Source: Thermoanaerobaculia bacterium | Lineage (GTDB): Bacteria > Acidobacteriota > Thermoanaerobaculia > UBA5066 | NCBI GenBank assembly: GCA_022071945.1 | Contig: JAJVIN010000006.1 | Coordinates: forward strand, 1 to 64,000 | DNA length: 64,000 nucleotides | Reading direction: 5' to 3' | In this document: positions 25,574 to 28,835 of the stretch, one piece after another | Numbering within the stretch: the stretch's first letter is position 1 | Layout: each line of letters opens with the position of its first letter | The notes under the pieces: generated by a model | Told to the model about the DNA's origin: nothing | The model's database searches: none | The model's input: only the letters and a program-made list of their open reading frames with translations | Translations under genes and position numbers: made by a program

Positions 25574-27601
25574 TCATAGCCGCTCCCTCGCCAGTGTCAG
25601 TCTGAGAGCGGCTTCGAGAAACGCTCCCGCGGCCCTCTCCTCGCCTTCGGACCCATCCCCCGTCCGGAGCCTTCCGACCGACATCGCCAGATCGCCGACC
25701 AGCCTTCCGCACTCCCTCAGCCCCGTCTCTTCGAGCCAGGCGGCGGATTCCGAGAGCCGTTCGACAAACGAAGCTGGGAGTTGCCGCATCCCCAGCTGGA
25801 CCACCTCTTCCAGAAGCGCCCAGCCCTGCTGGATCGCGCCCTCGACCGGTGACCGGCCCGAAGGGCCCGCCACGCCGCCCGTCACGGCGGAGGCTGCATC
25901 GCCCGTCTCGAAGTCCGGGACGACCAGCCTGTCCGCGACCACGGCGAGCGGCTCCAGGACCAGTCCTAGATGTGCGCGACGAAAGGCACCCGCGACGAAT
26001 CGAACCGCCCCGTGCGCGCCACCCAGCGCGGCCGCGAGGTGGTCCGTCGACAGCGGCACCACCGACCGGAACGGCTTCGCCAGGAGGCACTGCTCGCCCT
26101 CGAGATCGGTCAGGACCGCCTCTAGCTGCTGGGCGCCTGGCGAGAAGTACGCTCCCTGAGCGTCCCGGACGGGCAAGACGTGAACGTCCTCGGCAAGGAC
26201 CCTCGGGCGCAGGACCTTCGGAGGACGGCTCTTGAACAACTCCTCCAGGTGCGAGAGCGAACGGAGAAGCAAGGGCTCGGGCAAGCTCCCCCACTCGCCT
26301 TTCTGCGGCGTCACGGAAGTCATGCCACCCCGCGACTCGCCAAACACGAGACTCCTGTTCGCACGACGCTTCGCGACCCTCGTGACAACCAGCCCCTTCG
26401 CCAGCGAGCCTATCGAGACACCCGTCATCGCACGCTTGCCGCCGATCGCCGCGCCCTCGGGCAGGATCTCCTCCGGCTTGAAGTTCCACTCCTTCCGGAA
26501 GACGAGGACGGCACCTGAATCAGGGTCCGCGAAGAAGACCTCCACTTCACGACTCCGGCCGCTGCCGTCCACGTGCCCGCCGAGTCCGATGAGCTTGAGC
26601 TGGTCGAGCTTCGTCTCCAGCGCTTCTCCGGTCCCGAGGACGTGCCGTGAGGGCAAGGCCCCTCCGCCGCTGCCGCGCTGCCGCGCGACAAGTTCCGCTC
26701 CAAGCTCGACGATCGTTCCCGCCCGGTAACGGCTACTCCGCGTGCGATAGGCCTCGAGAGTCTCCTCGAGATCCTCGAGGGCCACATGGGGCCACGTGTA
26801 GCCGGCCTTCTCGAGATCCTCCCGGGCCATCGCGAACTTCTGCGCGAGGGCTCCGTGATAGCCAGAAACGCCATCGAGGAGGACGGCCCGCATCACGGAC
26901 AAGGCGCTTTCGAACGGGCCCAGCTCGACCTCGGCGTCATCACTGACGTGGACGTCCACGACGAGGCGCGCCGCATCGCGGTCGACCGTGTCGGCCTTGC
27001 GAAACGCCCAGACCGACAGCGCCACGTGCTCGCAGTCCGTTCGCCTCGCACAGTCACACTTGGCGTACGCGAGATCGTTCGGAACCAGGAACCGGACCGT
27101 ACACGCCGGAAGCATCGCGACAGGCGGCTGCCCATCGGCATTCCGCTGAACTTCAACCGTCGCTCCCCGGCGCGCAAGCTGGCGGGCGATTTCGATCATC
27201 TTCTTCCCGAGCCGCTCGATCAGCACCTCGTCGGTCAGATCGCCCGGACTCCACCGGACCGGCGCGACGGGGGACGGGCCTTCCGTCGCCGGGACGTCCT
27301 CCAGGAGGGACCCGGCCCGCGGCGCGGCCATCGCCCACTTCTGATAGGCGAGCACCGAGGCGACCCGGTGCCGGCACGCGCCGGAAGCGCCGCAGGAACA
27401 CTGCGCCTCCCTCAGAGCGACGCCAGGTGGGAGCTTGACCGTCACCCCGTCCTCGAAGACCGCGGTGACGACGGAGCCTGCGTCCTCCTCGATGGCGGGA
27501 CCTTTTCCCTGCTCGAGTTCGCGCTGCGCCCGCTTGACGAGGCCGAGGTTTGCCAGAGCGGCGATCGCCTCGGGGGTGAGCGCGAGGAGATCGGCCCTCA
27601 T
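25574..27601 (-). CDS. yehQ: SWIM zinc-finger protein, YehQ-like
   Basis: A 675-residue protein with two SWIM-type zinc motifs: C68-x-C70-x5-C76-x-H78 and C182-x-C184-x5-C190-x-H192. SWIM domains bind DNA or proteins. The remaining 470 residues have no recognised motif; they include a beta-rich stretch around 340-410 and helices at the end. E. coli YehQ is a SWIM protein of similar size (661 by memory) at the end of the same gene series. The ATG lies in the last unit of the 13-bp repeat and overlaps the stop of the last mini-ORF (ATGA). Last gene of the cassette and convergent with the propeller-kinase gene. Confidence 0.8.
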   Translation of the reverse strand: MRADLLALTPEAIAALANLGLVKRAQRELEQGKGPAIEEDAGSVVTAVFEDGVTVKLPPGVALREAQCSCGASGACRHRVASVLAYQKWAMAAPRAGSLLEDVPATEGPSPVAPVRWSPGDLTDEVLIERLGKKMIEIARQLARRGATVEVQRNADGQPPVAMLPACTVRFLVPNDLAYAKCDCARRTDCEHVALSVWAFRKADTVDRDAARLVVDVHVSDDAEVELGPFESALSVMRAVLLDGVSGYHGALAQKFAMAREDLEKAGYTWPHVALEDLEETLEAYRTRSSRYRAGTIVELGAELVARQRGSGGGALPSRHVLGTGEALETKLDQLKLIGLGGHVDGSGRSREVEVFFADPDSGAVLVFRKEWNFKPEEILPEGAAIGGKRAMTGVSIGSLAKGLVVTRVAKRRANRSLVFGESRGGMTSVTPQKGEWGSLPEPLLLRSLSHLEELFKSRPPKVLRPRVLAEDVHVLPVRDAQGAYFSPGAQQLEAVLTDLEGEQCLLAKPFRSVVPLSTDHLAAALGGAHGAVRFVAGAFRRAHLGLVLEPLAVVADRLVVPDFETGDAASAVTGGVAGPSGRSPVEGAIQQGWALLEEVVQLGMRQLPASFVERLSESAAWLEETGLRECGRLVGDLAMSVGRLRTGDGSEGEERAAGAFLEAALRLTLARERL

Positions 27602-27713
27602 CCGCGAACCTCATTCGCGGACCTCATCCGCGGACCTCATTCGCGGACCTCATCCGCGGACCTCATTCGCGGACCTCATCCGCGGACCTCATTCGCGGAC
27701 CTCATCCGCGAAC
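27597..27713 (-). repeat. Nine tandem 13-bp units forming a mini-ORF ladder
   Basis: Nine uninterrupted 13-bp units, read on the minus strand as alternating GTCCGCGGATGAG and GTCCGCGAATGAG (the outer two begin GTTCG), fill the whole space between yehP and yehQ. The TGA that ends yehP lies in the first unit and the ATG of yehQ in the last. In between, from each GGATGAG an ATG opens the nine-codon frame MRSANEVRG and ends at the TGA of the next such unit, where the following ATG overlaps it as ATGA. Four identical mini-ORFs thus link the two genes. There are no spacers, so it is not a CRISPR array. Confidence 0.95.
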
Positions 27714-28835
27714 CTTCTCCGCGATCCAGGCGGCGAGCTGCCCGGGCGTCATTGCCGCCACGCTGGCGCCAACGTTGACGAGCCGTCCGGCCATCTCGCG
27801 GTCGTAACTGGGGTTTGCCTCCTCGTCGAGCGCCGCCAACCCCAGGACCTTCGTCCCCTGCTCGCAGAGTGACTTCACGCGTTTGACGAGGAGTTCCGGT
27901 GAGGACCCTTCGTAGAAATCCGTGATCAGGACGACGATCGACCGGCGGGGGGCCTCGAGGAGATCCGTCGCATAGGCCACCGCCTTGCCGATATCCGTCC
28001 CGCCTCCGAGTTGTACCTTCATCAACAGTTCCACCGGGTCGGTCACATCCCGCGTGAGGTCGACGACCGCGGTGTCGAAGGCCACGAGGTGAGTCCGGAT
28101 GCCGGGCAGCCCCCACAGGCACGCCGCCGTCACGGCCGAGTGGATCACCGAGTTCACCATGCTGCCGCTCTGGTCCACGAGCAGAACCACTTGCCACTGC
28201 TCGGTGAAGCGCCGAGTGCGCGAGAAGAAGAAGGCCTTCTCGAGATAGAGCTTTCTCTCACCAGGAGACCAGTGAGCGAGATTCGACTTCAGAGTCTTGC
28301 GGAAATCGAGGTTCTTGGCGGCCTTCAGCGGCGATCGCCGCCGGCGGTCCAGCACACCGGAGAAGGTCTGCCTCACCTCGGTCGCGAGCTTCTCCATCAG
28401 CTCTCGGACGACTTCCGCCACGAGCTTTCGCGCCATTGCCAGGACGTCCGGGTTCATCAGGTGCTTCGTCCGCAGCACCGCCCCGAGAAGGACCTCGTTC
28501 GGCTTGATCCTCTCCAGAACTTGCGGGTTCGTCACGACCTCGTGAATGGCGTAACGCTCGACGGCGTCTTGCTCCAGCCGCTCGATCGTCTCCTTCGGGA
28601 AGAGCCTGTGGATCTGGTCGATCCAGTCGGGCACGGTGAGGGCGGATGGCCCGATGCCTCCGTGCCGGCCGCCGCGAATGTCCCGCCCCTGCAGTTCCTC
28701 GTCCCGGTCGTAGAGCCAGGAGAGCGCGGCGTCCATGGCGAGCGCATCGCCGTCCAGGCCGCAGCACGAGAGCGCCGACGCGGACGGGTTTCCCAGAACG
28801 AGCCTCCAGCGAGCAAGAGGCGGAAGATCCGTCAC
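27702..28835 (-). CDS. yehP: vWA-domain protein, YehP-like
   Basis: A 377-residue cytosolic protein with a C-terminal von Willebrand A domain carrying a complete MIDAS: D221-x-S223-x-S225 (DQSGSM), T280 (GGGTDIG) and D306 (ITDFYEG). The N-terminal 200 residues are helical. E. coli YehP has nearly the same length (378 by memory). MoxR ATPases typically act with vWA proteins as chaperones or metal-insertion machines, and the MoxR gene is two genes upstream. The GTG start overlaps the yehM stop (GTGA). The C-terminus, WIAEKVRG, ends on the same residues (VRG) as the mini-ORF peptide that follows, suggesting the repeat arose from this junction. Confidence 0.85.
   Translation of the reverse strand: MTDLPPLARWRLVLGNPSASALSCCGLDGDALAMDAALSWLYDRDEELQGRDIRGGRHGGIGPSALTVPDWIDQIHRLFPKETIERLEQDAVERYAIHEVVTNPQVLERIKPNEVLLGAVLRTKHLMNPDVLAMARKLVAEVVRELMEKLATEVRQTFSGVLDRRRRSPLKAAKNLDFRKTLKSNLAHWSPGERKLYLEKAFFFSRTRRFTEQWQVVLLVDQSGSMVNSVIHSAVTAACLWGLPGIRTHLVAFDTAVVDLTRDVTDPVELLMKVQLGGGTDIGKAVAYATDLLEAPRRSIVVLITDFYEGSSPELLVKRVKSLCEQGTKVLGLAALDEEANPSYDREMAGRLVNVGASVAAMTPGQLAAWIAEKVRG

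Follow-up and report, generated by a model that had tools for sequence, protein, structure and literature searches.

A yehP-like and a yehQ-like gene in an acidobacterial genome are separated by nine tandem 13-bp units, whose stop and start codons interlock into a ladder of four identical small ORFs leading from the stop of the first gene to the start of the second. The array lies in a 64-kb stretch of DNA (the window). With moderate confidence, we favor the reading that the native ATGA junction of the two genes was amplified locally, that ribosomes cross the enlarged spacer as in a relay, and that expansions interrupting this route are purged, leaving the ladder as a tolerated form of coupling.

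Coordinates throughout are positions within the window, and the features described lie on its minus strand. The operon encodes, in this order, a WGR/DUF4132 protein, a MoxR-type AAA ATPase, a DUF5682 protein, a VWA_CoxE protein, and a SWIM protein (Pfam domains). Judged from gene order and domains, the E. coli yehI/L/M/P/Q group is its counterpart. The yehP-like gene (27702..28835) codes for a VWA_CoxE-domain protein of 377 aa (PF05762, E 1e-60) with the C-terminus EKVRG and closes with a TGA stop; its GTG start and the DUF5682 stop share a 4-nt overlap, GTGA. The yehQ-like gene (25574..27601) codes for a SWIM zinc-finger protein of 675 aa (PF04434, 6e-5) beginning with MRADLLALTPE.

Tandem Repeats Finder places the array at 27592-27715, covering the yehP stop and the yehQ start, with a period of 26, 4.8 copies, 96% match, and a score of 227; at period 13, it comprises 10.2 copies (88%), with the copy number read from one 69-contig assembly and possibly in error by one unit. 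It is the strongest tandem array in the 64 kb by a wide margin and is itself no chance product. The original prediction had described nine 13-bp units of two alternating forms, and both the array and the alternation are real: the nine ATGAs are embedded strictly in turn in GGATGAG (five) and GAATGAG (four), and a 26-bp unit is the best description. Its claim that four ATGA-linked ORFs connect the yehP stop with the yehQ ATG proved exact. Their ATGs at 27705, 27679, 27653, and 27627 each open MRSANEVRG followed by a stop (27676..27705, 27650..27679, 27624..27653, and 27598..27627); the first overlaps the yehP stop in an ATGA, the second and third are linked in the same way, and the TGA of the fourth overlaps the yehQ ATG at 27601, the terminus of the chain. 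Every rung is a -4 overlap, one of the two stop/start arrangements (-4 or -1) by which a termination-reinitiation pair is recognized. A threefold concatenate of MRSANEVRG yielded no Pfam match, an outcome that carries no information for a 9-aa peptide.

The GAATGAG units build a second ladder, overlooked by the original prediction, that runs 13 bp out of step with the first. It consists of three MRSADEVRE ORFs (27611..27692; ATGs at 27692, 27666, and 27640), and its last ATG at 27614 opens an out-of-frame ORF of 153 aa (27153..27614, MRFADEGRSPR...) in the wrong frame of yehQ, which is probably a dead end and no gene. Two tracks thus run side by side through the array, and only the first of them is productive. 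A GAGG motif stands 6 nt ahead of the ATG at each rung after the first, where AAGG is found instead; the Shine-Dalgarno (SD)-like duplex amounts to -6.3 kcal/mol ahead of each ATG after the first and to -6.6 kcal/mol ahead of the first. The outermost units retain TTCGC, and the inner ones carry TCCGC.

The layout of the junction points to slippage as the origin of the array. If a duplication of length n spans an ATGA, a remainder of 0 on division by 3 leads to an in-frame extension, a remainder of 2 to a chain, and a remainder of 1 to a chain only with an even number of added units. The ladder is therefore the mechanical outcome of duplicating an ATGA junction by 13 or 26 bp, and since 26 = 3x9-1, every further copy contributes a single stop-start step and shifts to the next frame. 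The original prediction required an even number of 13-bp steps between the genes; this arithmetic holds, but it is weak evidence, because the strict alternation shows amplification to have proceeded in units of 26 bp, so that the chain is kept at any copy number. In the presumed ancestral, collapsed junction (AAGGTTCGCGGATGAGGG), two AGG triplets are spaced by exactly 13 bp, and a single slippage event would therefore suffice to create the unit. Slippage at this AGG microhomology would have joined the 3' end of yehP, with its AAGG SD-like motif, to the yehQ start in a 13-bp unit; a G-to-A change in one copy and amplification of the pair as a 26-bp unit may then have followed. The array would accordingly represent a tandem amplification of the native ATGA junction that took place locally and fairly recently, and a duplication spanning the stop-start overlap would spare both proteins. 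The TTCGC of the outermost units is as expected if these are the halves of the original junction, which would have come to flank the later 26-bp growth. A myxococcal junction (L016) is nearly identical to the collapsed form (AAGGTGCGCGGATGAGGG).

Slippage is common in this lineage, since a sample of 464 kb from the same genome (twenty 20-kb stretches) contains other fresh arrays with units of 14-15 bp in coding and non-coding DNA. One of them (L121, contig C9, 9734-9888) is a 15/30-bp array of 5.2 copies with 100% identity and the same two-form doubling; it encodes SSLEGSSLEA repeats close to the N-terminus of an 827-aa ORF. Another (L126, contig C15, 17516-17612) is a 14-bp array of 6.9 copies (93%) in an apparently intergenic stretch. 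Arrays of 13-bp units with ATGA also occur at ordinary intergenic sites in other genomes of the phylum. In L143 (G390:C50:543609, around 1488-1545), 4.5 copies of a 13-bp unit (ATGACCCGACCTG) lie 3' of a TetR-like ORF and form TGATG-linked 8-codon ORFs that end short of the next gene. An apparent enrichment of such arrays over a reversed control (7 loci vs matches in one genome) was discarded, as the TA step, which is rare, is present in the reversed control.

Since a ladder seen in a single genome is weak evidence, yehP-yehQ loci were surveyed. From 209 loci, three duplicated genomes were dropped, and 188 rows with both genes were retained, among which 181 sequences are distinct, a few records being present under two locus ids. 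Direct overlap is the rule (148 of 188), in agreement with the original prediction that the two genes would be coupled by one ATGA once the repeat is collapsed. Eighteen rows show a chain that is unbroken through one or more small ORFs, seven a broken chain, and 15 have no overlapping start; in most of the latter, yehP ends in TAG, a G-rich SD-like stretch is present, and yehQ starts at about +8 to +10. Eight Micromonosporaceae loci display this arrangement (L074, L075, L186, L189, L198, L201, L205, and L212) and apparently switched from overlap coupling to spaced initiation. At five further loci (L231, L234, L216, L079, and L162), in-frame repeats or long inserts lengthen the YehQ N-terminus by 18-45 residues.

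Of the 25 junctions that are not direct but have an overlapping start, 18 are connected, vs 12.4 expected under a null of one- or two-base insertions (p ~0.009) and 9.7 expected when the inserts are shuffled (p 0.0004); these statistics were devised with the first chains already in view, and the rows are mostly, not wholly, independent. The degree of independence follows from a tree of the yehQ N-terminal region (FastTree), in which the chain state changes 15 times for 18 rows, with 11 changes forced by well-supported branches. Within one clade (L235, L242, L245, L246, L250, L254, and L258), whose members mostly carry a GGAG motif ahead of a GTG start, three chains stand beside four broken ones, and the chain state looks random there. 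The junction 5' of yehP, used as a control, shows direct overlap in 73 of 81 loci and one chain (L092). In that case, a 14-codon ORF links the ATGA of the preceding gene to yehP, so relay ORFs are not exclusive to the yehP-yehQ junction.

The array itself was found in none of the close relatives. Genomes of the same family mostly lack yehP, and the sole one that has it shows a direct GTGA junction; no further genome of the same genus was present among the relatives searched, and plasmids searched with the junction DNA gave no match. In the closest relative of the same class (L020, Thermoanaerobaculia bacterium Co_bin.310, with an identical junction in L099 of G390), yehQ starts with GTG at +1 and does not overlap.

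Several of the chains are independent tandem-duplication ladders with units of 23, 24, 47, and 56 bp. L262 repeats the design of the window: its 23-bp unit combines the start of yehQ with the end of yehP and gives two ATGA-joined ORFs, MRAGRVGR. L203 and L217 carry two 16-codon ORFs each, built from 47-bp units, L224 has a 56-bp duplication at the junction, and in L035 (Dactylosporangium siamense), 8.7 copies of a 24-bp unit form one 70-codon ORF that closes in an ATGA at yehQ. As to whether relatives break the chain, the check named in the original prediction, the outcome is mostly favorable, with the 18 connected expansions, several of them independent ladders, set against the seven broken ones. 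The junction of a Micromonosporaceae genome (L202, G927:C1 near 72005-72162) contains a tandem 77-bp element with a 26-codon ORF. About 50 relatives of this unit (85-95% identity), often in tandem 77-bp steps, are dispersed in the same genome. This is therefore an element resembling the mycobacterial interspersed repetitive units (MIRUs) that inserted into the same junction, and its family is a dispersed one found outside mycobacteria. Ten weaker matches are present in a second genome (G943), one of them at its own yehP-yehQ junction.

With the array, the spacer measures 104 nt and, were there no relay, should uncouple the genes, since a spacing of about 20 nt almost abolishes coupling in published reporter work (PMC10666635). 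The fold of the minus-strand RNA has an energy of -80 kcal/mol (z -4.5), and the cost of opening the region around the yehQ start rises from 15.9 kcal/mol in the collapsed form to 23.0 kcal/mol when the array is present; arriving ribosomes should therefore matter for yehQ. In the majority of the E. coli pairs assayed in another study, reinitiation drops once the SD motif is removed (PMC6728339). Ribosomes terminating at yehP would most likely traverse the spacer, which is structured and about 104 nt long, by serial termination-reinitiation at GAGG-N6-AUGA modules, which would be their simplest route to yehQ, and yehQ would thereby remain at least partly coupled. Some loss of ribosomes at each rung and into the second ladder is to be expected, which makes a lower YehQ:YehP ratio plausible. 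We infer both the relay and the selection that purges its interruption, with a precedent for the former in mycobacterial MIRUs. Selection probably removes expansions in which the route is interrupted, and the ladder would accordingly be a variant of ordinary coupling that is tolerated, or that has a mild tuning effect, and no separate regulatory device. Overall, the interpretation given in the original prediction is partly supported. Against the relay, an SD-like motif precedes every ATG of the ladder, and yehQ could be started de novo; part of the ribosomes would be lost to the second ladder; the closest relative of the class lacks an overlap; and seven expanded junctions have a broken chain, with the chain state looking random in the clade of three chains and four broken ones. 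That coupled junctions in general grow by duplication or element insertion, with selection retaining only expansions with an unbroken relay of micro-ORFs, is a tentative generalization, somewhat short of an even chance. If it is true, relay ladders would form a general type of operon spacer that has arisen repeatedly, and the yehP-yehQ junction would offer a series of natural experiments on serial reinitiation.

The alternative that survives best, though it seems rather unlikely, is slippage without any function: the array would be harmless to both proteins, the ladder arithmetic a by-product, and yehQ translated from its own SD-like site, the GAGG 6 nt ahead of its ATG. By frame alone, random duplication of the junction would be expected to give a connected route in about 5/6 of cases, and the other fresh arrays of the same genome, both inside and outside coding sequence, fit this view, as do the 13-bp ATGA arrays at ordinary intergenic sites in the phylum. 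However, expanded junctions in relatives are connected more often than their frame-shifted or shuffled versions, the array raises the structure over the yehQ start, and published pairs are uncoupled at a far shorter distance. Much less probable is a copy-number rheostat, in which slippage alters the number of stop-start steps and thereby tunes or phase-varies the YehQ:YehP ratio. Near-identical short units are slippage-prone, and each added step should lose ribosomes if reinitiation is below 100%, but a 26-bp step keeps the chain at any number, and as the array occurs in no relative, nothing indicates that it is maintained. A role of the repeat as RNA structure or DNA (attenuator-like hairpins or an array of binding sites), with incidental ORFs, is more improbable still: the stable fold and a palindrome inside the unit (TCCGCGGA) fit it, but strong folding is trivial for self-complementary repeats, no terminator or promoter-like site was found within the array, the unit is absent elsewhere in the genome, and the expansions of relatives share the stop-start chain while their sequences differ. 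A dispersed element of the own genome is ruled out, as the 13-bp unit is confined to this one locus in the 6.17-Mb assembly.

A local amplification crossed by a relay would bear on a debated question, namely how far and how often ribosomes terminate and restart, with reinitiation at overlaps, scanning, and unfolding as competing views. Five serial ATGA steps and many independently built chains at one junction make the per-step efficiency of reinitiation directly measurable, and the array shows a route by which an operon spacer can be lengthened without loss of coupling. Each rung resembles known ATGA termination-reinitiation coupling in its 4-nt overlap and upstream SD-like motif (PMC6728339, PMC10666635), but five overlaps in series, not one, lie between the two genes. 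Like the leader ORFs of bicistronic designs in synthetic biology, a short ORF brings ribosomes to a start region that is structured (PMC12548453), whereas the present case is natural, serial, and located 3' of a full gene. The closest likeness is to mycobacterial MIRUs. The ORF in a MIRU unit couples to the adjoining gene by a -4 nt overlap (PMC12548453), and senX3-regX3 contains three 77-bp units in H37Rv and two of 77 bp plus one of 53 bp in CDC1551 (PMC4213456); the relay principle is therefore already known. Compared by layout, both systems place tandem units between two operon genes, with a small ORF overlapping the neighboring stop and start, and the lengths of 77, 53, and 26 bp all leave the remainder of 2 on division by 3 that a chain needs. 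MIRUs are dispersed and apparently mobile, in contrast to the unit of the window, which is only 13/26 bp long, belongs to an acidobacterial genome, and resides at one locus, made from the ends of its own flanking genes. What sets the array apart from MIRUs is its origin by local duplication of the genes' own junction, the very small size of its unit, its two interleaved tracks, and the fact that chains recur at the same gene pair in different phyla.
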